Assembly: GCA_000611775.1 (NCBI GenBank) | Contig: KK106987.1 | Span: 248,001 to 312,000 of the forward strand | Source: Umbilicaria muhlenbergii | Lineage: Eukaryota > Ascomycota > Lecanoromycetes > Umbilicariales > Umbilicariaceae | Length of the DNA stretch: 64,000 nucleotides | Direction: 5' to 3' | Shown: positions 42,331 through 64,000 of the stretch, piece by piece | How positions within the stretch are numbered: the stretch's first letter is position 1 | Layout: every line of letters starts with the position of its first letter | Position numbers and translations under genes: made by a program | Notes under the pieces: model-generated | Seen by the model: only the letters and a program-made list of their open reading frames with translations | The model's database searches: none | What the model was told of the DNA's origin: nothing

Positions 42331-43904
42331 GTTAGACTTATTCAGCAAGAATTGTCAAAGCGGAGACAGAAGCAAAAGCAAGAACTGTTGAGCTTTATCA
42401 ATTTTCCATTAATGACTTTAATATCAGTGCATCTTGAGTCTTGAACACTGTAAAACATTACTGTGTAAAGTTGTTTGCATTTTTGCTAAGATAAAGTATT
42501 AATAATATAAAAATTACTTTATTCACTCAGAACACTTTATTTTAAATTAATTATAATATAAGTTTATGATAAATATTTATAAAAAAACAACATAACTGTA
42601 ACTTAAAGATTATAAAGTTTAATAAGGTTTAAAAATTTATATATATCATAAGAATTAAATTTTTTACAAACTTTGTCTTTTAAATTTTAATAATAACTTA
42701 TTTAATAATATGTTATTTTTTATTGATTTTTATATTTATTTCTTTCTATATTTATAATATTATTTATATATTTATTAAAAATTTTATTGTAAGTTATTTT
42801 TTAAGTAGTATATTTATAGTTTCATTAATTTAATTTATTATAAGAAAATTATTTCAGTAAATACTTAAAATGACCTCTCTTAACTTGTAAATTCTTAAAA
42901 TAATCCTCAAAAGTTCATAATTCCTCATTTAACTCTTTATAAATATTAAAGTATAGAAACATTTACACTGTAAATTAACATCAAGAGATAAATTAATAAC
43001 AGTGTTTTACTTTCTTTCAAAACTTATTTCTTAAAGATTGAGTTTAAGATAAGTGTAGAAAATATTTGTGTTGTTGTATACTCATAATTTTTATTATAAG
43101 TAATTATACTTCATCTGCTTATAAGCTCATCTACTAATAATTGTTCAGTTGTTAAAAGAATTATTAGTGAGTGAACTTTGTAAAGTATGATTAGAAGTTT
43201 ACCTTAATTAAGATTATAATTAAAAACTTGATTAAAAGTGCTGAATTTTAGTTGATAAAAAATAATTACTGAACTTATTAAGAGCTTTATAAAGAAAAGA
43301 GGTAAGTGATTCAATGTAATAAATAAATTATAAATTAAAGTCAGTTCATACTTTGTTTAAATAATCTAAATTATATAAATAAATATATAAAATACAGCTT
43401 GAAAGTACCTTTATAGAAAGCTGAGAATTAAATAAAAAATTATAAAGTTTTAAGAGTTATTTCAGGAATTTACAAGTTAAAGAGGATTATTTTAAGTATT
43501 TATTAAAATTACATCAAAATTTATTATATTTATAGCTATAAAACTATAGTACTCTTTATTATAAAAAGTGTATAATTAAATATATAATAATATTATATAT
43601 AATTCTGTATTATTAAAATTAATAATTAAGAAATAAAAGAAAAAAGAAAATACAAAGTTTTAATATACATTATTCAATTATTTATAAAGTGTTAAATTAA
43701 ATATATTATTATATTATAATAATTATTTTTCTCTTTATATATTGACTTTTTAGCGTTGCTATAAAGGCTATTAAAATATTATTATTATAATATAACTATA
43801 ATGTGAGCATTCAGTGTACAGAACTCATCAGGTGCTAGTTTAAAATAAAAAAAATTATATTTAACAACAACATAATCTTGCAAAGATAACTTTTATTAAT
43901 GAAT
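42331..43904. other. AT-rich gene-free boundary segment
   Basis: The first about 70 bp after the stop still resemble the gene block. From about 42,400 onward the sequence is overwhelmingly A and T, with long A/T runs and almost no CpG. No protein, RNA or terminal repeat is recognisable. It is probably repeat DNA decayed beyond recognition; mitochondrial genes are not seen. Confidence 0.6.
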
Positions 43905-44062
43905 CAACTTCATGAAAAAGTTCAGTTAATAAACATCACTTCTGATACTTCATAAAAGTGATTAAAGAAGTTGACATCATTGATAACACTTCATGAAAAT
44001 GTGATTCAGTAATGAACACCTTGTAAAGACAACTTCATTAAGATGATTACTTCATGAAATCT
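43905..44062. repeat. Irregular short tandem repeat with ACTTCATGAAA words
   Basis: The word ACTTCATGAAA, with spacers such as GTGATTCAGTAATGAACA, recurs three or four times, irregularly, over about 160 bp. It sits just left of the oldest LTR-element remnant. It could be part of that element's terminal region or an older satellite. Confidence 0.5.
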
Positions 44063-44099
44063 TCCTCAAGCAGGCTTACTTTAGAAGAGATATATTATA

Positions 44100-46870
44100 A
44101 GATTAAAACATGTTTCACTTTCTTTTTTAATAATAATTCTCTATTTATTAACAATATTATATTATTGCAAATCATCAACTATAAGCTTAAGTTATTATTA
44201 TCATATAACTTTATAATTTCTTAGTTAAAATATTACCTCATGATAATATGCTTACAGTTTTATTGCTTCAATTTATTGTAAGAATGCTGTTCAGCAAGAA
44301 TGATTAAAAACTTATAAACTCCTCAATCAGCCTCTGTAATAATTTTATCAATCACTTCAAAAACTTCACAAGCAATAATTCAAGATGATTTTATCATTTA
44401 ACTTTTAATCATGACACATCACTCCTATATTCTCTGAGGAGCTTATTATGATGAATATCAGAATTTAACTTATGAAGATTCAACTCATGAGTGAGAAGGA
44501 ACATATTAAGCAGATTAAGCTTAAAATTTACAAATAATTTATATTAAATTCATCTTCAACTTTAAAACACACCTGTTATGAAAAGTGAGTCAAAGATGAA
44601 AATCTTTACTGTATGAAGAACTACTCTCACTTTCAGTAATATGTACATCAAATTAAGCACCTTCTTGTGAAGCTTCACCTTGAAGAGTCAGATTATTATC
44701 TGAACTATAAAATCATAAAATGATGAATCACACATTATAAAAAAAAGAGCTTGAAAGATATCTGAAAAAGTTAAAAGAACTTTTTAAAGTCTCTTTTAAA
44801 AAATCATAATAATCAGGTGTATAACACATAAATGAATTAAATAAATTATCACAAGTTAAGCAGTGAATCTGATGATGAGTATTTTCACAAGTCAGATAAA
44901 CTTCTGATTTAAATAAAAAATAAAGTGAAGAATTATCATTAAATTCAATTAATGATCTTCTTCAAAAGCTTGAATCATGTCATAAAACAGAAGATTTACA
45001 GACACTCTGTGTTTTTAAACTTTCATAAAGATTTAATTACATTTATGAAGAAACTCTGTCTCAACATTAAAATTAAAACTCACTTACAGATAATAATCAT
45101 GAATAATGATTTCAGCAGAAACATCTTTGTGAACATCATAAAGTGAAAAAATTACAAATTTACAACATTTATCATCATTACATCACATGATCTGAAATCT
45201 TTATGAGAAGTATTTTTTAATGAAGACTGCAACTACTGTGATAAGCATGAACATAAGGAACTGAATTGTCTTAAGAAGAAATTAAATAACACTGTGAGCA
45301 GAACTTTATCAACTGATTTAATTAATAATAATAATCATATCACAGCAGCCTCTGAGGCTATTATGAAAATCATCATAAAGTTAAAATCAGAGAAGAGTGC
45401 ATCATTTAAAATAAAAACATAATTATGACTTGTAATACATTTTATGAAAAAATCACTTTTAATTGTTTTTAACAATGTTAATGATCTCAATCTTTTTTGC
45501 AAGAATGTTGTGAAGAGTTTATCTTTAATCTTTAAGATATTATTGCTTCATCATGCTGAAGGAAATACCTTGTGAACTTATTTTTATTATTATGAAGTAA
45601 TAAAGGTTCAGAACTCTTTTGAAGTTTAAAAATAAACTCATGAATCTTTTACCTCTGCTGACTTAAAGATATCAGTGATCTTAAGATTATCATGATTATA
45701 ATGAAATAATCTGAAGATTGACTTCATCAATCTTATAATACAATGAAGATCAGATGCAGGGGACTTTTTAATAATTTTATTATTAAAAAAAATCATCATA
45801 AAAGGTCTCATAAGAAAACTCAGAGATCTTAAGATAAATTACATGATGCAGGAATTACAGGTGATAAATTTTAATAAATTAAAAAACTTCATGAACTTAA
45901 TTTTTGAAGCTTACAAGAGTCTTATGAAGATTTTTTTAAAAACTTAAGTGAAAACTCTGTCTTCTCATTACAAAGAAGATCACTTAATTAATTTGTTGAA
46001 GAAAACAATATCACTTTTTGATCTTATGTATAATCTTTTTATAAAGGAGTTGACTGTACTACAGAAGTATTTAAATATTAATCTCATGAATAAGTTTATT
46101 CAGTTGTTATGATCTTCTACAGGAGCATTAATACTTTTTGTATTTAAAAATAATAAAAGCTTGCAGCTCTGCATGAACTATTAAAAGTTAAATATTATTA
46201 CTTAAAAGAATTGATATCTTTTATCATTAATTAATAAGATCATGAATCATGTCTATAATACTTAAATCTTTATGAAGATTGATGTCAAAAACACTTATTA
46301 TCACATTCACATACATGAGGGTGATGAGTGAAAGACAGCATTTCATATTAAGTACAGATTGTATAAATATTTAATTATATTTTTTAAACTTATCAATGCT
46401 TCTGTGAGTTTTCAGTTTTACATTCATGAAGTTCTTCATGAATATTTAAACATCTTCATGATTATATTCCTGAATAATATCTTGATTTACTTAACAGAAG
46501 AGAGTTGACATAAATAATATATTTATATTATTTTGAAAGCTCTGCTCACAGCAAAGTTGTTCACAAAGCTTTTTAAATATTTATTTAATATGAAGCGTGT
46601 GCTCTTCCTGAGATATGTTATCACAGATACAGAGGTTGAAATGAAGATGAATCACATATTTATCATTATCAATTAATCAGAGTCAAAAAGTGTGCATAAA
46701 GTGTAAACATTTTTAAGCTTTATGAACTTTTACTGAAGATTCATAAAGAGTTTCTCATGTATCACTGCATCTTTCACAGAGATCACTAAAGAATTTAATG
46801 CAAAATTAAAAAAAAAGTTGATCTCATGAAGAGCAGACTTTTTATCTTCAGAGATGTAAATTATCTTTAA
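44100..46870 (+). mobile_element. Fossil Ty3/Gypsy LTR retrotransposon (element 0), partial
   Basis: Oldest-looking element of the nest, in plus orientation. Recognisable parts are a gag-like region ending in a CCHC zinc knuckle (about 45,225-45,290, spacing C-x2-C-x4-H-x4-C), a protease-like stretch and a Ty3/Gypsy reverse transcriptase (about 46,000-46,850). The reverse transcriptase includes the conserved catalytic neighbourhood NNILIYL and downstream family blocks. It is cut off at 46,870 by element A; its continuation is not seen in the window. The left end and any 5' LTR are undefined. It is heavily decayed, with dozens of breaks, and clearly dead. The family assignment rests on domain order and reverse-transcriptase similarity. 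Confidence 0.75.
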
Positions 46871-47090
46871 TGTCAAGTTTACACCTGAATGTTGTATTGA
46901 ACTGAACATTGTACTGAATGAATGACTGAATAAGTTAACAGTGATTAAATTAGTGAGCTTAATGCATACATAAAGACTTTAACCTTTGCACTTTTTCCTC
47001 CTTTTGCTTCTTAGACTAAAATTCTTCTCTGTAGCTAAATGTCAGCTGTTAAAACACATGCATTAATTCATAATCTGCATAGTTTTGATA
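46871..47090 (+). repeat. 5' LTR of element A
   Basis: 220 bp beginning TGTCAAGTTTACA and ending TTTTGATA. It matches, in inverse orientation, the two 263-bp LTRs of element B over its length, including the conserved ACATGCATTAATTCATAA block. It defines where A interrupts element 0. Confidence 0.85.
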
Positions 47091-50000
47091 TTATTTTAAT
47101 TTCTTTTTTTATCTCCTGCTGCAAGGCATCCTGAATGAATTCTGAATCAAATTAACATTAAAGTCAGACAGTTAATCAGAACCTGAATCAGAATCAAAAT
47201 TAAAAATTAATCATGATGATCAGAGAAACTGATAATAAAGTTTACTCATGAATTAAAGAGTCTTTGTTGACTTCTGTGAATGATGAACAATTCACTTTAA
47301 ATAAAAACTTGATTAATCAGATTCTAATCACCTTGACTGCAGAGATCTTGATTAATCTCTTATAAGAACATTCCTCTGAAGCAATGACTGCTCTTCAACA
47401 ACTGATCACTGATCATGAGCAGTCCCTGAATGAAATCAATATCATTATAAAGGCACATAAAGAACTACAAGCAGACTATGAAAGAATAAAGGATAAGAAC
47501 AAGAAACTGAAGAAAAAAGTCATTAAATAAATTGATGTGATAACATACCTTGAATAATGAATTATAATCATCTTCATAAGTACCCCCTGACCTGATTTCC
47601 CTCAATTCACAGTTGAAGGATTATTCAGCTTCAGATTATTAAAGCTCTCTGATTCACTGATGTTCTTCAATGATCATTCAAAATACAATGAATGAGTAGT
47701 GAAGATCAGAAACTACTTATTAATAATAAACAAATGATATCTTACTGAGCAGATAAAAATAACATACATGAAGACAAGAGTTGAGGATGACTTTATTAAA
47801 CACATAAAGTCTCAAATAAATTCAGCATCTTAAACAGTTTATTTAAATATTATTAAACTGCTAGAACATTTGACCTGAATTTACAGAGACTCAGATTGAG
47901 AATGTATCATCATTGATGAATTTCATAAGTTTTATTAAGAATTCAAAGACTTCCTGTCCTTCTGAGTTAATTTTCAGTGATATGTTACTGAACTGAATGA
48001 GTTTTTTAATTTATACTGAATAGGAGAACTTCTGAACAAGGTGAACAACATCATTTAATAATAATTAAACACTGATGATGACAGACTTGAAGATCTTTAT
48101 GAACTTATTAAATGCTGTCAGTAAATCAATCAGACTTTACAACTGCTTAACACAAAGAAGATCATCAGATCTCAACTGAATCAAATATTCTCTTTCACAA
48201 GTTAAACTCATACAAGGATTGAATGTTTCATTAAAACCTTAAAATCAACTACTTGAATGATCATTGAGTCAGTTCCATGAATACTGAACTGAATGTCACA
48301 CTCAAATGCCATCAAAGAACAACAGATGAAAAAAGAATGATGTTTTAAATATAATGAACAGAGACACCTCACCTTAAATTATTTAAATAAGAACAAAAAG
48401 AAAGAGACTTTGATATTAAAACAGATACAATGAATTATATTTAACTTTAATTTTAATTTTAAATCAGATTCAAGAAAAGGCGTTTTTCTATTAAAGTCAT
48501 GATAAGAAACAATGATAATCTTCTTGTGATATTAATACTGATGATTAATAAAGACATTCTGTTCATCTGAACATCATTTAAAGTGAATTGCAAGCTCACT
48601 CTGAATGAGGTCAAGCTACAAGTCAAGGCTTTACTTGATACTGAGTCAATTGAATATGCATTCATTAATGTCAACCTGGCAAAGACTCTGATTGAATGAT
48701 TTAAAATTAAAGCAGTATCACTGCCAAAGCCCTGAACCCTACATGATTTTCAGAAAAAGACAGTGAAATGAGTTACACATGTAATTTATTTAATTATAAA
48801 GGTTTGTGATCATTCTCAGTGACTCATCCTCATGATGATTGTAGACATGAAAGATCTCAACATTATATTAAAATTCTTTTAAATGAATCACACCTGAATT
48901 TTAATCAACCCTGTGAATTAGGTAATGATTTTCTCACTGAATGAATAAACTGAACTGAATAAATGAACTGAACTGAATAAATGAACTGAACTGAATAACT
49001 GAATGAATAAATGAATCAAATGATTGAATTTAAATCACTAAAAACTTATCAGATCTTGAAGAAATTCATTATAAAAGCAGATCTTGAATTAACCTCTGCA
49101 TTAAAAAGTAATAACCCCTCACATGCAGTTAATATCAAGATGATTGACACAATACTGTTCACATTAAATATGAAGAAAGGCAATGAAATCTTTATTATCT
49201 TTATTCAACAAATTAAGGAAACATTGAACTCTGAATTAAAATTAAGTTAATTAAATATTAAGATGATTTTTTCTTCTGAATATCATGACCTGATTGATGT
49301 CTTTTTTAAAAAAGCTGCAAATGAACTCTCTTCACATTAACCTTATGATCACAAGATTGTCTTAAAGGGTGAGTAAAAGCTAAAATACACACTTTTTTAT
49401 AATATGTCACATGAAGAATTGATAGCAGTGAAGAACTACATAGAAGACAACTTGCAAAAAGATTTCATTAAAGTCAGTCAATCATCAGTAGCCTCACTGA
49501 TTTTGTTTATACAAAAGAAAAATGAGTCTTTACAACTGTGCATTGACTACTGAAAGCTAAATTCAATTATGAAGAAAGACTGATACTCATTGCCTTTAAT
49601 TGAGGAAACCTTGACTCAGATTTCAAAGACAAAATACTTCATCAAGATTAATATACAACAGGCATTTCACTGCATATGAATGAATCTTGAATCTGAAGAC
49701 TTGACAACCTTTCAAACAAGGCATGATTTTTACAAAAATAAGGTCTTGCCTTTCAAACTCACTAATGAACCAGTTACCTTTCAGCACTTTATTAATGATG
49801 TATTATTTAATTTATTGAACACATGCTGTACAACATATTTAAATAATATTCTGATTTATTCAGAGTTCCTGTCTGAATATTAAACTCATGTTTAAACTGT
49901 TCTAGAATGACTGAGAAAGGCAAATTTACAAGCTGAAATCAAGAAGTGTGAATTTCACAAGACTGAAACTTAATACTTAAAACTGATCATAAGACATCAT

Positions 50001-50999
50001 AACATCTGAGTGAACCTTGAAAAGATCACAGTCATTAAGACTTAAGAGGTACTGATTAATTTAAAACAGCTGCAGATATTCTTAAATTTTTGTAACTTTT
50101 ACTGATGATTCATAAAGGGATATTCTAAAATCACAAAATCTTTAATCAGACTGACAGGCAAAAACATATTCTTTAATATGTAAATTGAACAGTGTCTTCA
50201 AGCATTTAATGAATTAAAGAACTAATTGATTAACATATTAATATTACAACACTTTAACTGAATCTGAATATGTTATTTTAAATATGATTCATCTGATCTG
50301 ATATCTGCAGGAGTATTATCTCAGAAAGATGATTAAAAATTAATGCATTCAATGACATTTTTCTTTAAGAAACTCATATCAGCTGAATTTAATTATGAAA
50401 TTTATAACAAGGAATTGTTGACTATCATTTAAAGTTTAAAAAAATGATGTGCTGAATTAACAGGAACAGAGAATCTGATTTAAATTTTAACAAATCATAA
50501 AATTCTGAAGTACTTTATAAAAATCAAGAAATTGACTCACAGATAAGTCAGATGAGCTGAATTCCTCTCATAATTTAACTTTATGATTACATACTGAACA
50601 GGCAAGGAAAATGAAAAGATAAACACACTCATTAAATACTTAAATGACTGACTAAAGAAGAATGAGGATGATGAGTGATTATGATATTAATTTTAAATCA
50701 TGCTACTGAGCTGCTGCTTAAACTCATGCATCATTATTAAACAAAAGAAAAAAGCTCCTCATCTTTTAAAATCAGCCCTGAATGAATCAGCTTTAAACAA
50801 ATCAGCTGAACAGACCCTGAATAAAACTTTAAATGAATTAATTACTCATTATGTGAAAGCAGATGATTTCTGCCAGGAAGTTATAAACTTATTATAAATT
50901 AAAACAAGATATTCAATCAAAATCTCTCTCAATGACTATACTGAAGATGCAAATGATTAATTACTGTATCAGGAACAGGTATGAGTCTCAGAAGTTAAT

Positions 51000-51262
51000 T
51001 ATCAAGACTATGCAGATTATGAATTAATGCATGTGTTTTAACAGCTGACATTTAACTACAGAGAAGAATTTTAATCTAAGAAGCAAAAGGAAGAAAGAGC
51101 ATGAAGATTAAAGTTTTTATGTACATGTTAAGCTCATTAATCTAAATCACTGTTAACTCATTCAGTCATTCAGCGCTAACTCATTTGATCATTCAGTTCA
51201 GTACATCATTCAGATCATTCAGGTCATTCAGTTCAATTTAATGTTTAAGTGTAAACTTGACA
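51000..51262 (-). repeat. 3' LTR of element B
   Basis: 263 bp, same length and orientation as 54,358-54,620. The TTAAT duplication abuts its left edge. Confidence 0.9.
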
Positions 51263-54200
51263 TTACCTTCTTCTTTATTTAATGAGCTTCATGAGCTGAT
51301 CATCTACTTTTCTCCTTTGTTGTTGATGTATTCAGTGACTCAATCAGCTTATTTGAGTACCTCTCATGAAATGCCTCTTTCAGTTCAGGTGAGTGTTTGA
51401 ATTCATCAGTGTTGTATCAGATCTTATCAGGTGAGTACTTTTTTCATGTCACTTTATACTGTAATCTGTTTTTTCATCAACAGTTATCATTAATTTGTTT
51501 AACTTCTCATTTCAGTTCAGCCTGTTTAGTTCATTCTAGAACAGTTTAAACATGAGTTTAATGTTTAAACAGAAACTTCAAATAGATCAGGATATCATTT
51601 AAATATGTTATACAACAAGTGTTCAATAAATTAAGTAATACATCATTAATAAAGTGCTGAAAGATGACTGATTCATTAGTGAGTCTGAAAGGCAAGATCT
51701 TATATTTGTAGAAATCATGCCTTGTTTGAAAGGTTGTCAAATCTTCAGAATCAGAATTCATTCATATGCAGTGAAATGCCTGTTGTATATTAATCTTGAT
51801 GAAGTATTTTGTCTTTGAAATCTGAGCCAGGGTTTCCTCAATTAAAGGCAATGAGTATCAGTCTTTCTTCATAATTGAATTCAACTTTCAGTAATTGATG
51901 CACAGTCATAAAGACCTGTCTTTCTTTCATATGAACAGAATCAGTGAGGCTACTGATGACTGACTGACTTCAATGAAATCTTTTTACAAGTTATCTTTTA
52001 TGTAGTTCTTCACTGCTATCAGTTCTTCATGTGATATATTGTAAAGAGGTGTGTATTTAAGCTTTTATTCATCTTTTAAAACAATTTTGTGATCATAGAA
52101 TTAATGCAGAGGGAGTTCATTTGCAGTCTTTTTAGAAAAGACATCAATCAAGTCATAATATTCAGAAGGGAGAATCACCTTGATATTTAATTCACTTAAC
52201 TTCAGTTCAGAGTTCAATGCTTTCTTAATTTATTGAATAAAGATAACAAAGATCTCATTGCCTTTCTTCATATTCAAGGTGAATGATGCTGCATCAATCA
52301 TCTTGATATTAACTGCATGTGAGGAGTTATTATTTTTTAATGCAGAGGTTGATTCAGGATCTGCTTTTGTGATGAATTTCCTCAGAATCTGATAAGGTTT
52401 CAGTGATTTAAATTCAATTGTTCAGTTTATTCAGTTTATTCAGTTGTTCAGTGTTTGATTCTTTAGTTTAGTTCATTTATTCAGTTTAGTTTATTTGTTT
52501 AATTCAGTTTATTCATTCAGTGGAAAAATCACTACCTGATTCACAGAGTCAATTAGAATTCAGATGTGATTCATTTAAAAGAGTCTTAATATAATGCTGA
52601 GATCTTTCATGTCTACAATCATCATGAGGGTGAGTCACTGAGAATAATCACAAACCTTCATAATTGAATAAATTGCATGTGTAACTCATCTCACTGTCTT
52701 CTTCTGGAAATCATATAAAGTTCAGGGCTTTGGCAATGATACTGCCTTAATTTCAGATCATTCAATCAAAGTCTTTGTCAGGTTAGCATTAATGAATGTA
52801 TATTCAATTGACTCAATATTAAGTAAGGCCTTGACTCATAGCTTAACCTCATTCAGAGTGAGCTTGCAATTCACTTTGAATAATGTTTAGGTGAACAAAA
52901 CATCTTCATTAATCATTAACATTAATATCATAAGGAGATTATCATCATTCTTTATCATGACTTTAATAGAGGAACATCTTTTTTGAATTTAATTCAAAAT
53001 CAGAATCAAAGTTGAATATGATTTATTGCACACATTTTAATGCTGAAGTCTCTTTCTTTTTATTCTTGTTTGAACAGTTTAAGGCAAGGTGTCTTTGTTC
53101 ATTATATTTAAAACAACATTCTTCTTTCATCTGTTGTTCTTTGGCGGCGTCTGAGTGTGACATTCAGTTCAGTATTCAAGGAACTGACTCAGTGATCATT
53201 CAGATAGTTGATTTTAAAGTTTTAATAAAACATTCAGTTCTTGTATGAGTTTAGCTTGTGAAGAAGGATGTTTAATTCAGTTTAATAATCTTCTTTATAT
53301 CAAGCAGTTGTAAAGTCTGATTGATTCATTAACAGTGCTTAATGAGTTCATAAAGATCTTCAGGTCTGTTATTGTTAATGTTTAATTATCATTAAATGAT
53401 GTTGTTCACCTTGTTCAGAAGTTCTCCTATTCAGTATAAATTAAGAAACTCATTCAGTTCAGTAACATATCACTGAAAATCAGCTCAGAAGGATGAAAAG
53501 TCTTTAAATTTTTAATAAAGCTTGCAGAATTCATTAATGATGATATGTTTTTAATCTGAGTCTTCATAAATTTAGGTTAAATGTTTTAGCAGTTCAGTAA
53601 CATTTAAATAAGCTGTTCAAGATGCCAGATTCATTTGAGACCTTATGTGTTTAACAGAGTCACTCTCAACTTTTATTTTCATATATGTTATCTTCATTTA
53701 TTTGATGAAGTATTATTCATTCATTACTAGTAAGTAGTTTCTGATCTTCACTACTCATTTGTTGTATTTTGAATGATCATTGAAGAACATCAGTGAATCA
53801 GAGAGCTTTAATAATCTGTAGCTGAATAATCCTTCAACTGTGAATTGAGGGAAATCAGGTCAGGGGGTACTTATGAAGATGATTATGATTCATTATTCAA
53901 GGTATGTTATCACATCAATTTATTTAATAACTTTTTTCTTCAATTTCTTGTTCTTATTCTTCATTCTTTCATAATCTGCTTGTAGTTCTTTATGTGCCTT
54001 TATAACAGTGTTGATTTCATTCAAAGACTGCTCATGATTGATGATCAATTGTTGAAGAGCAGTCATTGCTTTAGAAAGATGTTCTTGTAAAAGATTAATT
54101 AAAGTCTCTGCAGTTGAGGTGATCAGGATCTGATTAATCAGGTTTTCATTCAAGATGAATTGTTCATTATTCACAGAAGTCAACAAAGACTCTTTAATTC

Positions 54201-54357
54201 ATGAGTAAACTTTATTATCAGCTTCTTTAATCATCATGATTGAGTTCTGATTTTGATTTTAATTCTGATGTGTTGATCATCTGACTTCAGTGTCAATCTG
54301 ATTCAGAATTTATTCAGGATGCCTTGTGGCAGGAGATAAAAAATGAGATTAAAATAA

Positions 54358-54620
54358 TATCAAAACTATGCAGATTATGAATTAATGCATGTGTTTTAAC
54401 AGCTGACATTTAGCTACAGAGAAGAATTTTAGTCTAAGGAGCAAAAGAAAGAAAAAGCATGAAGATTAAAGCTTTTATATGTGTGTTAAGCTCACTAATC
54501 TAAGTCATCACTAACTCATTCAGTCATTCAGCGCTAACTCATTCAGTCATTCAGTTCAGTACATCATTTGAATTGTTCAGGTTGTTCAGTTCAATTTAAC
54601 ATTCAAGCATAAACCTGACA
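54358..54620 (-). repeat. 5' LTR of element B
   Basis: 263 bp. Its outer end reads TGTCAGGTTTATG on the minus strand. The TTAAT duplication abuts its right edge. Confidence 0.9.
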
Positions 54621-55805
54621 TTAATAATGATTCAAATAAAAATAAGTTACAACTTTGACTGATTCAAGAAGCACATGAACAACTGATTACAGAACATATA
54701 AAACATCAAAAGACATTAAAAATACTTACATGATTCTACTATTGACCCTGAATGAATTGAACAGTCAGTGATTTTGTTTGAAATTGCCACATTTGCCGCT
54801 GAACAAAGAACATGAATGAGCAGTATCAAGGAGCTTTAAAATCACTTTTAATTTCAAGTCATTCATGATAAGATATTTCACTCAACTTGATTACTGAGTT
54901 ATTTAAAAGTGAAGGATTCAATGCAATCCTGATAATTATTTACAGACTGATCAAGAAGAGATATTATATCTCTTGTTTAATGAATAAAAATAAGAGAATA
55001 TTAGCTGAATACATTGCTGAACTCTTGCTTCAAAATGTATGAAGATTTCATGAATTACCACAGATAATTACATCAGACTGAGGATCACAGTTTATAACAT
55101 TACTTTGAAAATACCTGTGTGAATGACTTTGAATCAGATTAAAACCTTCAACTGCTTTTCATCCTGAGACAGACAGGCAGTCTGAAAATGTGAATGCAAA
55201 TGTTAAACATTATCTTAAAGCATTTGTGAATTATCAGCAAGATGATTGAGCTAAATAACTGCTAATGACTGAGTTTGTAGTCAACAATGCAGATTTTGAC
55301 TTCATCAAAGTTTCATCATTCTTTGTAAATAAAGAATATCACCTCTGAATGAGCTTCAACCTTGAATGATTAATCATCTCACTGCTGACAAGAGAATGAA
55401 TTCTGAAGGAAAAAGCTGATTTCATAATAAATCATATGAAGGTTCTACATGCAATGTTATAAGAGAACATGACAGTGACACAACTTCAGCAAGAAGACTT
55501 CATGAACAGAATTTAAACATTAATCTCAACATATTAAGTGAGAGATTTGATATGATTATCAACAAAAAACATTTGAACAACTCATCTATTCAAAAAGCTG
55601 AATCACAAGAATGAAAAACCTTTTTGAATCAAGAAGAAAGTATCAACTCAAGTATATAAACTTGAACTGCTTAAATTAATAAAAATACACTCTGTATTTT
55701 ACACCTTCTTATTATGACTCACTGTGAATAATTTTTTATTTAAGTAAATTGAGTCATTATCATCACCTGTAATAACTGAACAGGCTAAATCAGAATGAGA
55801 AGTTG

Positions 55806-55929
55806 TGTCAAGGTCATCATATAATAATATGACAGTATAACACTAATATGACACTAGTATGACACTATAGTACGACACTATAGTATGACATTATATAAAT
55901 ATGATGACTCAGCGCCTAGCGCCTTGACA
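55806..55929. repeat. 124-bp repeat with TGTCAAGG...CCTTGACA inverted ends
   Basis: Exact 8-bp inverted ends (TGTCAAGG at 55,806, CCTTGACA at 55,922) enclose tandem TATGACACTA-like units. It sits exactly where the element A sequence ends and element C territory begins. It could be a short 5' LTR of element C, or part of one, or a tiny independent inverted-repeat element. No convincing target duplication and no second copy were seen. Confidence 0.5.
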
Positions 55930-58900
55930 TCAAGTAAAACTCTTTACAAGGAGGTTCAGAAACCTGCTTTCTCAATGATCAGTTTTGCCACTGAATAGAA
56001 GACATATAATCATTGCATTGATTTATCATGATTATATTGTCTACAACACCCTGTTCAACTCTTATATGATGACTGTTGTACACTCATTCTTTTACATACT
56101 GATCACTCAGTACCTTCAGGTGAATGATCACGTCAAAAGCATAAAACATGATGACATCAACATTTTAATCTCATCAGGTCAATGAAACAGTTGATAATCA
56201 AGCTGAGGCAGGCCCTTCAACTAACAGGTTTACATTATCAGTTGTTGATACCTCTACTTCTGACATCATTGATGATGATGAACATATTGCTGCAGGCAAC
56301 CTCAATGACATCATTAAAAACCTTGAGGCAGTCACTGCTCATAATCAGAAGGTCATCAAGTGTCAGTGATTACAATTATGATGCATATGACAAGAAATTG
56401 AGTTTGAAGATAATAAAAAAAAGCTTCAGGAGCTTAATCAACACCTGTAAGAAGATTCTTTAATTATGATTACAGTAAACTCAAGGAATGATGCAGGTTC
56501 ATCACATGAATTATGATGTCAAGTTATGACAGACATCACACCTCCCTCTTTTTAACATCTTGTAAAGTCATGAGAGCCTCACCTCTATGCAGGAGGCATT
56601 AAAGTCATGAGATGAAAACTTCAAAAATACCTGAATGAAATTAATCAGAATCAGGAGCTGATGTCAGAGTAATTCTTTATTGAATGAGATTTCATCATCT
56701 GAGCAGGCATCTACCTTGAGAAAACAGTCATGAGTGACTGATGAAAGCAAAAGGAGCAGCATGATCACACTTAAATCATTTATGACAACTTTTTAAAGAT
56801 TCTAGAGAAGAACTTATCCTCTGATGAAGACATGAATGAATGAAATATCATCACTTTCAATGCAGCTGAACTTCACAGTCATGATATAATTACCTCTTGA
56901 TATAATAAATTATCAGAACTTTACTGCTTCCTTTCAACTTCACACAAGGAAATCAGTGAGATGCTCATTCAAGATCACTGATGATCAAGGCTTCCTCATC
57001 ATGTCTTGACTGAATTATGATGTTGAGATCTGACGCAGGTTGCAAGACAGTTAATGCAGAAAATTTCAGCACATCTTGATATCATCATCAATCATGAATC
57101 ATTCTGAAGCCGCTCAGACATCAAAAAGGATCATTAAAGCAAAACTGATAATAATGACAAAAGTATGACACAGACGTCATACTATGACAGAAAAGAATCT
57201 TTCACTGAACAATAAACCTCTCACCCTCAATAATTCAATCATGAAAGAGGAAACAATTCATGAGGCTTTTATCAAGAAAGTAATCATGATCAAAGCTGAA
57301 ATTTAAACCACATACCAGTTGCAGAGAAAGTGATCATGACAATAATGCAGATGTTCACAGGACCCTCATGCTGACAAGAAGATTTTATTCTTAAGAATGA
57401 AGTAAATGCATGAAAAGCAGCAGGCCTCTGTATCAAGTGTGAAATCATCAGTCATTAAACAAATGAATGTATGATGAGATGATCAACAGCAGTCACTACT
57501 GCAGTTGATGTGAATAAATGATTTACAGTCAACCTTCAGCTCATCTTTTTACTTATCATTGATGATATCTCACATCTGATATCAAGGCAGTTAAAGGTGA
57601 ACTCTCATATGACAAGGAATGATCTGAAGAAAAAATACTCATATATTATTGACAATGACAGTCAAGGCAATATTATCACATGATATGTTGTCAATGAACT
57701 GTCTTTACAAACTGAACCCTATGAAGCTCAAGTCAATGCATGAGGCAATATGATTGACTTGTCAGAATTCATCATATTGACTATTACAGCATACAACATC
57801 AACAGTCAACTTTATCACTATAACAGCTGCTTTCTTGTCACATGAGACAACACATCAACTCCTTTCATCCTCAGGTTATCATTTCTAGTCAATGCAAACC
57901 TGAATCATGAATANNNNNNNNNNNNNNNNNNNNNNNNNNNNNNNNNNNNNNNNNNNNNNNNNNNNNNNNNNNNNNNNNNNNNNNNNNNNNNNNNNNNNNN
58001 NNNNNNNNNNNNNNNNNNNNNNNNNNNNNNNNNNNNNNNNNNNNNNNNNNNNNNNNNNNNNNNNNNNNNNNNNNNNNTTCACATGATCATGTCATTGACT
58101 TGAAATCAGAGCAGCAACCTTCATTTAAAAAGTTATACTTGATGTTCTCAGCTGAACTTAATGTACTGAAGGTATATCTAGATGATGTCATGAAGACAGG
58201 CATAATTTATAAATTAATATCATCTGCAGCTTCACCTGTTATGTTTGTACTGAAATCAGACAGCAGCTTATGATTAATCATTAATTATAAGTGCTTGAAT
58301 GATATTACTATTAAGAATTGTTACTCATTATCACTTATATCAGACATGTTGAATCATCTTTAAGGAGCTAAGAAGTTCACTAAGCTGAACTGCAAGAATG
58401 CATATAATCAAATATGAATTAAGAGTGAAGATGAGAGAAAAACAGCATTCTGAACATGATTCAGGCTGTTTAAATATCTTGTCATGCTTTTCAGTCTCAC
58501 AAATGCTCCTGCTATGTTTCAAGCCTTCATTGATAAAGTGCTTGATGAGTTTTTAAACATCACATGCATGATCTACTTGAATGATATCTTGATCTTTAGC
58601 AAAGATGAGTTTAAGCATGAAGAGCATGTATGATAAGTACTAGGTGCATTATGATGTCATGATCTTCATCTTAAGATCAGTAAGTGCTCATTTAATACAA
58701 CAGAAGTGAACTTCCTAGAATTTAAGATTAACATGAAAAACATATACATGAACCTGAAGAGGATTTAAGCTGTTGAAGAATAACTGCCTCTGAAGAATAT
58801 TCATGAATTGCAAGTCTTTTTAGGCTTCATCAACTTCTTTCAAAGATTTATAAGAGATTATTCATGAATTACAGCATCACTGTTAAACCTTCTGAAAACA

Positions 58901-61900
58901 GGAAGGAATAAAAATAAGATTAAGATTATATCAAGTTCTCTTTCAACTCACTGAACTGCTCCTCATCAAGACATTGAAGGAAAGCAGAGCAGCTCAATCT
59001 CATTGCAGAGGTTTAACACAGATTATTCAGCATGCAGCTTATAAGTCAGAGGAGAGTTATGACAAGAAAATGTCATATCTGCTTCTTTTTCACTTTCAGG
59101 AGCTGCATTGAAAGCATTTAATGTTCTGAAGGAGACCTTTATGAGTGCTTCATTATTACACTACTTCAATGAAAACAAACTCATGAGGGTTGAAATGAAC
59201 GCCTCTGAATTCACAATTGATGAAATCTTGATGCAACACTTCAAGGTCAACAGTCAATTGCATTGATTATCAGTTGTTTACTACAGTAAGAAGCTGCTAA
59301 ATACTGAGACTTGATATGATACAGGTGAGCAAGAGCTCCTTGTCATCATGAAAGTCATGCATCATTGACAGTACTACTGTCAGGGTGCTAAACATCAAAT
59401 TGTCATACTGACTGATCATGCAAACCTTGTTTGATTCATGATTACCTCAAACCTCACACAAAGGCAGCTCAAATGAGCTGAGAAGCTTGCTGAATATGAC
59501 TTCAAAGTCACATATCAAGAAGGCAAGAAGAACCCTGCTGATGATTTATTAAAACAGCTTGATTATGAACTGCTGAAGACTGTCAGTACCTTGACTGCTG
59601 CTGAAATAATACAACAGTCCTTTCACTTAAGAAGTGAGGATTATAAGTCAGTACAGAAGAAATTATACATGCTTGCTGTAATGACACTGCAGTCAAGGGC
59701 AGTATGACAGGAGCTACAACAAGAGAACATTATACCTGTCACAATGAATACTATCAGTATGATGAACACTGAAGACAGCAGTCTCATCAGAACATCAATG
59801 ATGTAAAATCTACCTACTTAAAAAGAAGCAAGCTGTAATGAAAATAATGAGAGTGTCATGTCAAATGAAGTCAGTGATATCATTGAAACATCAGCAGTGC
59901 ATCATCTACTCAGTATGATGAATACTGAAGCTGATGATATGATTAAAACATCAGCAGTTCATGACCTACATGCTTGAGAAGCAAGTCATGACTGAATAAG
60001 AGAGTTTAAGTATGCAGAGCCTCAGCAGCACTCAATCAAGGATAACTCAGCAAACACTGCAGTTATGAATGATGACACAAGTCATGTTTCTATTAGCTTT
60101 TAAATTGAGGATAACACTTCTGCTGACATTGTTGAAGCGCTTCAACTCATGTCTACTCACTCATCAATAAGTGAAGAGATAACAGCTTATACAAGAATGT
60201 TTATTAAATAACTTAAATGTGTGATTCATACTGAGCAGTTGAAAGACAGTTTGGTATGATGAGTACAACAGGGATTAACTACCCCTCTTAAGAATAAAAA
60301 CAACTTAGCTGAGTTCAAGATGATAAATATGAATATAAACATGAACCCTGAGATGATCATGACATCAGAGATGCAGCTAAATATGACATTTATACTGTCA
60401 AATATATGAAAACATTGACAAGAAATAAATGATGTCATACATTATGATGACAAGATCTACATTTCATAGAACTCTGCTCTTCACAATGCAGTGATCAGTC
60501 AATTTCATGATGATGTTTTTGCAGGTCATTTCAGGAAGTCAAGAATTACAAAATTGATGCAGTGATCTTATGATTGACTTGATGCTGTCAAAGATGTATG
60601 ATGTTACTGTCATGACTGTGTTGAATGTTAAAAGGTGAAGTCAGCTCATCACAAATCATACAAATTATTAAACTCATTATTAGTTCTGAAAGTGTCATGA
60701 CATACAGTGACAATGAACTTCATTATGAACCTGTCACTGAGCAGCACATATGAAAGTATGACATGAGATTCAATCCTCATCATAATTGATAAGTTGATTA
60801 AAATGGCTCATTATATTCCTGTACAGAAGACAATGTCAGTTGCTGACTTCATTGAAGTGTTTATTCAAGACATTATCAAGCATCATGACATGTCAAAAGT
60901 TCTAATCACAGACAGAGACAAGTTTTTTATGTCAGAGCAATGAATCAGCTTCTGCTTTCACATGTGATGTTGTCATAACATGTCAACAGCTTTTCACCTG
61001 CAAACTGATGATCAAACAAAGAGGCAGAATCAGTCTCTGAAGGTGTATTTATGCATATTCATTAATGAGCAGCAAGAGGATTGAGTTAAACTTCTACTTT
61101 GCATGAAGTTCTTGTACAACAACTTCATACATACTGCTACAAGAAAGAGCCCCTTTCAGCTTAACTTAAGATGAGATCCTCAGATGAGTCTAAGTAAGCT
61201 GTTTATACAGCACTCACATAAACAAATAAAACTTTATGCAGATGCACAGCAGCTTCAAGATCAAATTGCAACAGCTCAAGAGCAGTTATGACAGGTCAAC
61301 AAGATGTATGTAAACTATTATAATCAGTGCTGAATGAAGATAACATTCAAAGAAGGTGATTTAATACTGATTAATGAAAAGAATGTGTCAGTGAACAAGC
61401 AGATGAAGAAACTGCATTGAAAAAAACTCAGCTCATTCATGATATGACATGTGATAAATCAATCATCATATGAACTTGACCTCTCAGAGGATCAAAACAT
61501 TTATAATGTATTCAACATCACTCTATTGAAGTCATTTTAAGACACACGTCATGTGTTTCCTGCATTGACAGGAAAAGACCTACTACTTAATTAAGATGAT
61601 GAGTGAGAAGTCAAGACAATTGTGAATAATCATGTTCATGACAGCAGGCTTCAATACCTCATCAAATGAAAGTCAACAGATCAGGTGTGAGATGACACAT
61701 GAAAGTCAACACACTTCATCTGCAATGTAAAGACAAAAATGTGAAAATTTCATGCTGACAATCCTGACAAACTGAAATTCAGGTGAGTTGTATGATGTGA
61801 CTTTTTAAAGTTGATTGAGAAGTTGTCACAAAAGTCATGAGTCTTAAGAAAGCTGTCACAAAAGTCATGAGTTTTAAGAACTGAAAACTTTGTCAGCTTT

Positions 61901-62130
61901 GTTAACCTGATCTTTTATGACAGAGTCAGTGCTTTATAACAAGAATATGACAGGAGCTATGACACTATGATGAGATTTATAATAGAATTACTGCATGAAC
62001 TACATTATAACAGATGTGTCACATTGCAGAGAATCAAAGAACACTTAAGCACAGAAGCATTTCATTTCAAATTTAAAGATTAAAGTGAACTTGAGATCAA
62101 CACCTTGCACTTAACCTCTCATCAGTGCTG
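55930..62130 (+). mobile_element. Fossil Ty3/Gypsy chromovirus (element C)
   Basis: Plus-oriented element of a different family from A/B. Parts in order are a gag-like region (from about 56,180) with a CCHC zinc knuckle near 57,430-57,475, and an aspartic-protease-like region (about 57,600-57,780). After an assembly gap come reverse transcriptase (about 58,130-58,900), RNase H (about 59,100-59,560), integrase (about 60,480-61,300) and a chromodomain (about 61,620-61,790), which marks it as a chromovirus. A 33-bp tandem duplication lies just after the chromodomain (about 61,817-61,880). LTRs are not securely defined. It is heavily decayed, with dozens of breaks. Confidence 0.8.
57914..58077. 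other. Assembly gap (164 N)
   Basis: A run of N within element C, between the protease-like and reverse-transcriptase parts. The length may be estimated rather than real. Confidence 1.
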
Positions 62131-63255
62131 CATTAAATCATTTTCATTTATCTACTTGTCTTCTGTCATCTCAAACTCTTCTTCATTGTTTGATGAAGTC
62201 TTCAATCTCATCTCCTCAACATGATGCTGCTCACAGAGTTCAATATACTCTTGATGATGATGAGATTGATGAGCATTGAGGATGCAAAGAGCGTGAGCAG
62301 TGCTTTTCAGCAAAACAGCAAGAGCTTGAATGAGCTTTTCAGAATTACTGAATTAACATTAATCACCTCATTATGAATGTCATGAGACTCATGTTGAGGA
62401 GTGACTGCAGGGAGCATGAAGGATGCTGATAATGACTGATAAAAGATGACAACATGAGAATCTGATGATCAGTTGTTGAACATTATGATTAATTAACAAT
62501 GCAAAAGTATGACATAAAGTATGACAAAAGTACAACATAAAGTATGACACTTTGTCATACTAAACAAAACAAAAAGAGATTAAGAAAGGCAGACTTACAG
62601 TGTGCTGTCATCCCTCTGATCATCATAGACATGCACTGAGACAACAACATCAGAGCTCTCAGAGTTAAAAGCAGTGATGATTGAAGACTCTGCTGTGCAT
62701 TGCTCATGAGGATTACAGAGAGATATGCAACACATGCAGGCTCTTCTGTCTGACACAAAGCAGTGATCAACTTTAGCTCTTATATAAAAGTCACAGTGAG
62801 CAGTACCTGACAACATGTGACTGAGGTTCTCTTAAATCACACGCTCATGATGATGAGCCTGCTGCATGTGAGCCGGCAGTGAGATATCATTGTGACATCA
62901 CACAGAGCAGGAACTGCTGCTGAAGACATCACTTAAAGATAAACACCTGACTCTCTTCAGATGTTGAACAGTCAGTTTTATCACTCTGTTTCCTCATCTC
63001 TTTCTGAAGGTGTTGATCATCACAGTTTCATTCACTGACTTCAACTCAGAGCTCTCCTCATTACATTGAGCCTGAAGCTCAACAGGCTTCCCTGATGAAG
63101 GCAGGTCTTCACTGTTGTTCATGATCATGAGTTCAAGAGTTCAAGTATTGATTGCTTATATACCATGTTAGCATTCATACAAGGTATGACAGGAAGTATG
63201 ACACTGCAAATGAGACATGAACTGCAAGCTTCATGATGCTCTCTTCATGAGGTTA
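62131..63255. other. Unassigned CpG-poor repeat DNA with TATGACA clusters
   Basis: No protein domain was recognised. It contains repeated TATGACA words (about 62,506-62,560 and 63,184-63,206) like those in the 124-bp repeat at 55.8 kb. It also has a perfect hairpin AGTATGACA-CTT-TGTCATACT at 62,541-62,561. It may be the 3' non-coding end or a diverged LTR of element C. Confidence 0.5.
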
Positions 63256-63950
63256 CACTGCACCATGGGTTGAGTTTTACCCAGTGGGTTTGGGTTTGAG
63301 GTGAGTTTGGGTTGGGTTTTGAGGTGAGTTATACATGTCAAAACCCAACCCAGAAAAAACCCAACTCATTTAACTCAAACTCAGAAAATTCTGGGTTAAC
63401 CCAGTACATACAAATAGTTATGGTAGTCAAAAACGTCAGTTCAAAAGGTGCCTTCTCAAGTCATTTTCAAGGTCATTTTCTGAGGCTGTCATCAAAGCCA
63501 TTTTGGAAGCCGTTTTGGAAGCTGTTTTGAAAGTCATTTTTCGAGGCCGTTTTGAAAGCCTTTTTTTGAGGCTGTCGTTGAAGCTGTTTTGAAAGCTGTT
63601 TTGGAAGCTGGTTTTTGAGGCCGTTTTTCAAGGCCGTTGTTGAGGCCGTCGTTGAAGCCGTTTTGGAAGCCGTTTTGGAAGCCGTTTTGAAAGCCGTTTT
63701 TCAAGGCCGTTTTTCAAGGCCGTTTTTCAAGGCTGTTGTTGAGACTGTTTTGAAAGCTGTTTTGGAAGCTGCTTTGAAAGCTGTTTGAATGAGTCATATA
63801 CGTGAACTTGAACTGGGTTACCCAGTGAAAAACCCAACTCAAACCCAAAAAAACCCAACCCAGTGTGACTCAACCCAAAAGAAACTCAACCCAGTCTGGG
63901 TTGGGTCACAATAGTCAAAACCCAACCCAAACCCAACCCATGGTGCAGCG
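63256..63950. mobile_element. MITE with GGGTTG-rich terminal inverted repeats, TA target duplication
   Basis: 695 bp bounded by inverted ends. The left reads CACTGCACCATGGGTTG and the right, reverse-complemented, CGCTGCACCATGGGTTG; about 20 of the first 22 positions match. TA flanks both ends (63,254-63,255 and 63,951-63,952), consistent with Tc1/mariner-type insertion. Subterminal DNA is built of GGGTT(T/G)/AACCCAA words. The interior is a minisatellite and no transposase is encoded. CpG is retained far more than in surrounding DNA, suggesting younger age. Confidence 0.82.
63458..63787. repeat. 12-13-bp minisatellite inside the MITE
   Basis: About 25 variants of GAAGCCGTTTTG and CAAGGCCGTTTTT fill the MITE core. 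Many units carry GCTG in place of GCCG, so CpG decay has begun here. A short open frame across the left half is repeat-driven and not a credible gene. Confidence 0.85.
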
Positions 63951-64000
63951 TACATGAGGTGAACACCTCTGCAATGAGGAATGACATCATGAAGTCATCA

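Follow-up and report, generated by a model that had tools for sequence, protein, structure and literature searches.

We analyzed a 64,000-nucleotide stretch of Umbilicaria muhlenbergii DNA (contig KK106987.1, positions 248,001–312,000; hereafter the window), in which a block of genes is followed by a zone that has lost nearly all of its CpG dinucleotides and CCA/TGG triplets. The zone appears to consist largely of decayed Ty3/gypsy retrotransposons. Judging from the sequence, these elements were probably destroyed by active C-to-T mutagenesis resembling repeat-induced point mutation (RIP), through a RID-type enzyme with an altered sequence context. A first-pass annotation of the window had described the decay as directed to CpG and CCA/TGG rather than to CpA as in classical RIP. 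The measurements agree, in that CA/TG is raised and standard RIP indices fail in 19 of 20 1-kb windows.

CpG and CCA content of the zone and its flanks

The two compartments compared throughout are as follows.
1–42330, no strand: gene block serving as control (RPB1, a HIS4-type gene, lipin and other genes; counts taken from 1–42000)
42362–63433, no strand: CpG- and CCA-depleted zone, with 21 scattered CpGs inside

The last dense CpG lies at 42361 and dense CpG resumes at 63434. The annotation had placed the decay at 44100–62500, an interval that is indeed decayed but whose limits are slightly too narrow. The nine 2-kb windows of 44001–62000 hold 0, 1, 1, 1, 2, 5, 4, 1 and 2 CpGs (17 in 18 kb), at an observed/expected ratio of 0.00–0.11. 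Once 164 N had been removed, 42501–62500 contained 19 CpGs, where 200 shuffled versions averaged 437 and never fell below 377. CCA/TGG numbered 20, compared with 211 in 200 shuffles that preserved dinucleotides, the lowest of which had 188. CCT/AGG, which shares the dinucleotide CC/GG, is over-represented in the same interval (346 against 170), and the deficit is therefore a property of the triplet CCA and not of CC alone. CTA/TAG is strongly under-represented (200 against 575). We also observed an excess of CAG/CTG (753 against 524). CA/TG has an observed/expected ratio of 1.46 and TA one of 0.66 (43001–62200). These counts substantiate what the annotation had judged by eye, namely that CpG occurs just a handful of times per 10 kb, that TGG/CCA is very rare and that CA and TG are still abundant.

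Equal CpG loss in the gene block, the outcome that the annotation had set against its own reading, was not seen: the observed/expected ratio of CpG is a normal 0.76–1.02 in all 21 2-kb windows of 1–42000, and the Markov ratio of CCA there is 1.09. The right flank at 63.4–64 kb keeps CpG and CCA as the gene block does (17 CpG and 37 CCA in 63001–64000); there, a tandem array of 12-base-derived units (63434–64000) that retains both motifs directly adjoins the decayed zone. In this one window the genes and the right flank are spared, as would be expected if the decay were confined to repeats, yet the stretch at 42.5–46.9 kb is equally depleted (0 CCA/TGG and 2 CpG in 43001–47000), and Pfam scans and self-comparison found for it no protein match and no lengthy match elsewhere in the zone. 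Other features of the zone are a very AT-rich segment at 42501–44000 (10–24% GC), an imperfect inverted repeat of 86 bp (42851–42936 and 43424–43509) and an assembly gap of 164 N (57914–58077).

The high TpA/ApT and low CpA+TpG of classical CpA RIP are absent from the zone. In the same nine 2-kb windows TpA/ApT was 0.47–0.77 and (CpA+TpG)/(ApC+GpT) was 1.60–1.96. Published cut-offs for RIP-positive sequence are a product index of at least 1.1, a composite index above 0 and a substrate cut-off of 0.75 or 0.9 (PMC6714961). When these were applied to the 20 1-kb windows of 43001–63000, the product and composite cut-offs were passed by one, the very AT-rich flank at 43001–44000, and the substrate cut-off by none at either 0.75 or 0.9. 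The index calculation in 1-kb windows that the annotation had proposed as a check therefore does not indicate ordinary RIP.

Decayed retrotransposons and the changes between their copies

Pfam and PDB searches were made with stops masked; within the zone, Pfam was run on the plus frames of 42501–52499 and 54001–63999 and the minus frames of 45001–54999 and 54001–63999. Together with self-comparison they delineate three putative elements, E1 to E3, with long terminal repeats (LTRs) assigned to E2.
46885–50999 (ends approximate), plus strand: left part of E1, a Ty3/gypsy LTR element with an LTR-like start and reverse transcriptase–RNase H, recognized from its match to E2, Pfam and Ty3
46919–49910, plus strand: E1 arm aligned to the reverse complement of E2 51531–54530, 86.5% identity
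49332–50630, plus strand: E1 reverse transcriptase–RNase H piece, 433 codons with 25 in-frame stops (12 TGA, 13 TAA, 0 TAG)
51000–54620, minus strand: E2, a partial copy of the E1 family, reversed, inside E1 (self-match, LTR-like ends, TTAAT)
51000–51265, minus strand: one of the two E2 LTRs
54358–54623, minus strand: the partner E2 LTR as aligned, the element end according to the duplication being 54620
54641–55165, plus strand: integrase pieces (zinc-binding, core) from Pfam, assigned to E1 by position alone
58112–61561, plus strand: E3, Ty3/gypsy reverse transcriptase, RNase H, integrase and SH3 pieces, from Pfam and Ty3 matches

A perfect five-base repeat, TTAAT, read by eye at 50995–50999 and 54621–54625, flanks E2 and reads as its target-site duplication. 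The match between E1 and E2 stops at 49910, and E2 therefore has the look of a derivative that lost internal sequence and was inserted in E1. This nested element makes a convenient substrate for studying mutation spectra. A search limited to viral contigs confirmed no undecayed relative of E3, although one stretch fit a pattern.

Over 2983 aligned sites, the E1 and E2 arms differ by 388 substitutions, which comprise 373 transitions and 15 transversions. The two E2 LTRs differ at 33 of 266 sites, and all 33 differences are transitions; the two comparisons overlap in some E2 sequence. C:G-to-T:A transitions between the repeat copies thus appear to exceed other changes by far. The two LTRs of one element should be identical at insertion, and since those of E2 differ from each other, the changes came after insertion. 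TG in one copy faces CA in the other at 36 positions of the arms and 8 of the LTRs, which implies that a CpG still existed there at the time the copies arose and was then struck on different strands. These TG/CA pairs, together with the stop codons, point to C-to-T as the direction of change.

The stop codons also indicate which cytosine of CCA was converted. Among 1410 in-frame codons of five pol pieces we counted 52 TGA, 20 TAA, 1 TAG and no TGG; the three aligned pieces of E3 account for 27 TGA, 6 TAA and 1 TAG, again with no TGG, in 802 codons. Eight columns with tryptophan in Ty3, picked by eye from the alignments and with codons then checked, read TGA in five cases, TAA in two and GAA in one, with neither TGG nor TAG. 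Read on the opposite strand, a change of TGG to TGA corresponds to CCA becoming TCA, whereas TGG to TAG needs the second C, and the first C of CCA is therefore the one converted. The TAA codons fit a later step from TGA to TAA (TCA to TTA). Thirteen of the 20 TAA codons lie in the E1 reverse transcriptase–RNase H piece, unlike the integrase pieces, which have 13 TGA and 1 TAA in 175 codons. It follows that the integrase pieces are misplaced in E1 or that age alone does not account for the TAA codons, and these pieces may belong to another element.

These observations bear on whether the elements were poor in CG and CCA from the start. AT-rich repeats are common in fungi, and the flank at 42.5–44 kb has only 10–24% GC. 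However, the TG/CA disagreements between copies, the TGA codons at Ty3 tryptophan positions and the near-pure transitions indicate that CG and TGG were lost, so that a native composition of this kind is largely refuted and extremely improbable for the elements, a statement that does not extend to 42.5–46.9 kb.

From the 36 TG/CA sites we estimate about 72 ancestral CpGs in the arm, where 3 CpGs remain in the two arms. Per copy, CpG loss then comes to about 3.9 and transversions to 0.0025 per site. The resulting ratio, near 1,540, is rough: it takes both strands to be equally likely targets and draws on 15 transversions. Slow loss, in which transposons methylated at CpG by Masc2, DNMT5 or Dim-2 decay by spontaneous deamination of 5-methylcytosine with no RIP, would account for CpG as the main target and for its decay to TG or CA with both strands affected and no runs on one strand. 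In the view of Amselem et al., methylation and deamination underlie CpG signatures (PMC4352252), and heavy CpG methylation is described in Tuber (PMC7862722). However, methyl-cytosine decay proceeds at 10–50 times other transitions (PMC5870242) and concerns methylated CpG alone, a pattern that the zone does not show: the asymmetric triplet CCA is nearly gone too, and the excess of CpG loss is much larger. The figures of 1,540 (against transversions) and 10–50 (against transitions) are different yardsticks, which makes the gap smaller than it looks, though still large. With CpG loss so far above the transversion rate, slow deamination alone is quite unlikely. The annotation had offered two mechanisms, a DNA methyltransferase with a different context preference and methylation followed by deamination; the former fits better, because depletion of the asymmetric CCA comes close to that of CpG and transversions lag far behind CpG loss, and the latter, as a slow process, fits less well.

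Same-strand runs of decayed CpG were not found, 11 of 35 neighbours being alike against 17.2 expected, and their absence is neither proof of RIP nor support for a single-strand deaminase. An APOBEC-like cytidine deaminase acting on element cDNA or exposed single strands would yield nearly pure C-to-T change with strong context dependence. Such enzymes favor non-CpG contexts and leave one-strand tracts, unlike the alternating strands seen here, and the differences between two LTRs of one insertion place the changes after insertion; we consider this origin very improbable.

Sequence context of the converted cytosines

We expressed the C/T ratio of each context in the zone relative to the gene block. 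It was 0.001 for CGA, 0.019 for CGT, 0.056 for CGC and 0.19 for CGG, a context whose product TGG is itself lost. CCA stood at 0.012 (CCA/TCA) against 0.47 for CCC and 0.46 for CCT, and CTA (0.10) and CAA (0.18) were the lowest of their respective series; CCG was uninformative, with 3 left and 1 TCG. TCG occurs once in 42501–62500 against 1412 times in 1–42000 (both strands), and ACG, GCG and CCG are nearly gone from the zone as well. The survivors are enriched for a 5′ purine (R): RCGY, where Y is a pyrimidine, makes up 15 of 19 CpGs in the zone against 545 of 2518 in the genes, so that 4 CpGs in 42501–62500 have a pyrimidine 5′ of the C on one strand or the other, and RCCA makes up 17 of 20 CCA against 783 of 1523 (p 0.003).

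Divergence between copies provides evidence for a preference for A at position +2 that is separate from the zone/gene ratios. Among 710 C sites with identical flanks in E1 and E2, 176 had diverged: 57 of 142 with A at +2, 80 of 300 with T, 30 of 178 with G and 9 of 90 with C (stratified Cochran–Mantel–Haenszel p 4e-8; both strands of one alignment, with nearby sites treated as independent). The effect of a pyrimidine at −1 was weaker (p 0.002). The +2 A preference accounts only partly for the CTA/TAG deficit and the CAG/CTG excess.

We propose that a single enzyme of the DNMT1 family, either RID/Masc1-like or Dim-2, would meet duplicated DNA in the sexual phase. Coupling methylation to deamination, this enzyme would convert a C that is followed by G or by the pair CA, as in (Y)C-G and (Y)C-C-A, while TCA, CTA, CAA and CCT would be slower, second-line targets. 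CGA and TGG would thereby become TGA stops, and CA/TG rather than TA would be high. More tentatively, and as a suggestion we would not yet favor over its negation, the RID-type mutator may read two bases 3′ of its target, taking CG and the first C of CCA near completion, with A at +2 and a pyrimidine at −1 preferred.

Alternatively, two processes could overlap, CpG methylation–deamination and a separate RIP enzyme preferring CCA, CTA and TCA. Target speeds do differ, CpG and CCA being nearly exhausted and others partly converted, and RID, Dim-2 and DNMT5 are listed together in some ascomycetes (PMC7862722). The 5′ purine favored in the survivors of both targets is simpler with one enzyme, an argument tempered by the mild skew of the CCT control in the same direction, and we judge two processes unlikely.

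Several observations weigh against the proposed RID-type mutagenesis. The term "repeat-induced" is based on three elements in one window, confinement to repeats was observed at a single zone, and the decayed CpGs lack same-strand runs. CCA is not the sole low non-CpG triplet, as CTA is low too (200 against 575), and the RCCT/YCCT control shares the mild 5′ purine skew (p 0.006). At CpG, A at +2 is T at −1 on the other strand, so that the −1 and +2 effects are inseparable there and amount to one effect viewed from two strands. Between copies, CCA supplies just 5 comparable sites (4 diverged); CCT, though retained, diverges as much as CAA (18/48 and 40/103), and CTG diverges like CTT (22/94 and 26/115). 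The uneven share of TAA between the E1 reverse transcriptase–RNase H and integrase pieces is unexplained by element age.

Judged by its gene set, the host is likely an ascomycete, a question on which PDB chain comparisons of three proteins from the window give no verdict. The UTP11-like protein scored 97.7 bits against PDB chain 5oql_H and 77.6 bits against 5wlc_SY, which we take to be from Chaetomium and budding yeast, respectively. RPB1 had its best PDB chain match in 3h0g_A. An Rfam search returned nothing at the gathering threshold, and a tRNA search found none.

Relation to known fungal systems

CpG-type decay of repeats occurs in Coccidioides, where Sharpton et al. in 2009 reportedly described CpG loss. 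In A. nidulans, MATE elements show a change of CpG to CpA (PMC2621366); Tuber has a CpG signature, and A. niger and A. fumigatus show CpG besides CpA (PMC4352252); in Uncinocarpus reesii, a rise of CA/TG was read as consistent with RID and RIP (PMC7862722). With these ascomycete precedents, CpG-type decay is not in itself new, and the annotation's view of a CpG bias in an ascomycete as noteworthy is not supported in so far as it implies a lack of precedent. The new part, as far as the consulted passages of these papers extend, is the CCA/+2 A rule: neither CCA loss nor such a rule appears in their passages on CpG-type decay, where trinucleotides are mostly unexamined. No paper among the matches listed combined RIP, fungal and CpCpA, and the spelling CCA has 0 occurrences in the consulted portion of PMC12543289, the only text checked for it.

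The zone resembles the classical, RID-dependent RIP of Neurospora and many Pezizomycotina (CpA to TpA) in the C-to-T decay of duplicated transposons, the AT-rich blocks, the nonsense codons and the sparing of adjacent genes, but here CpA/TpG is in excess, TpA/ApT ratios are low, there is hardly any TAG and the main targets are CG and CCA. With ascomycete CpG-type RIP (A. nidulans MATE, Tuber, Uncinocarpus) it shares the change of CpG to TpG/CpA in transposons and the rise of CA and TG; unlike the zone, A. nidulans shows additional CpA to TpA, and the consulted descriptions of these systems do not include the CCA-to-TCA loss and +2 A preference found here. The RIP-like hypermutation of Pucciniomycotina, described as TpCpG to TpTpG, likewise targets CpG with a 5′ pyrimidine preference, comparable to the near-total loss of TCG here. 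However, C-to-T change in the zone is not mainly at TCG, since ACG, GCG and CCG were nearly lost too, with CCA as a second target, and the host is probably an ascomycete. Vertebrate-type deamination of 5-methylcytosine also turns CpG into TpG/CpA on either strand; the zone differs in its far higher rate relative to transversions, its loss of asymmetric CCA and its block edge beside unaffected genes.

An Ascomycota survey relied on the product, substrate and composite indices (PMC7882544), and a survey concluded that RIP-like defences have CpA preference in common (PMC12543289). The zone is near exhaustion at its main targets, yet the standard indices almost wholly miss its decay. If the more tentative reading is true, in which the mutator reads two bases 3′ of its target, the zone would represent a distinct RIP dialect, marked by TGA stops and high CA/TG, that TpA-based Ascomycota surveys would score as RIP-free. 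Should the CG and CCA rule hold genome-wide, RIP in ascomycetes would be undercounted, and the rule would offer a testable sequence code for the RID-type enzyme, whose chemistry is, to our knowledge, still unsettled.

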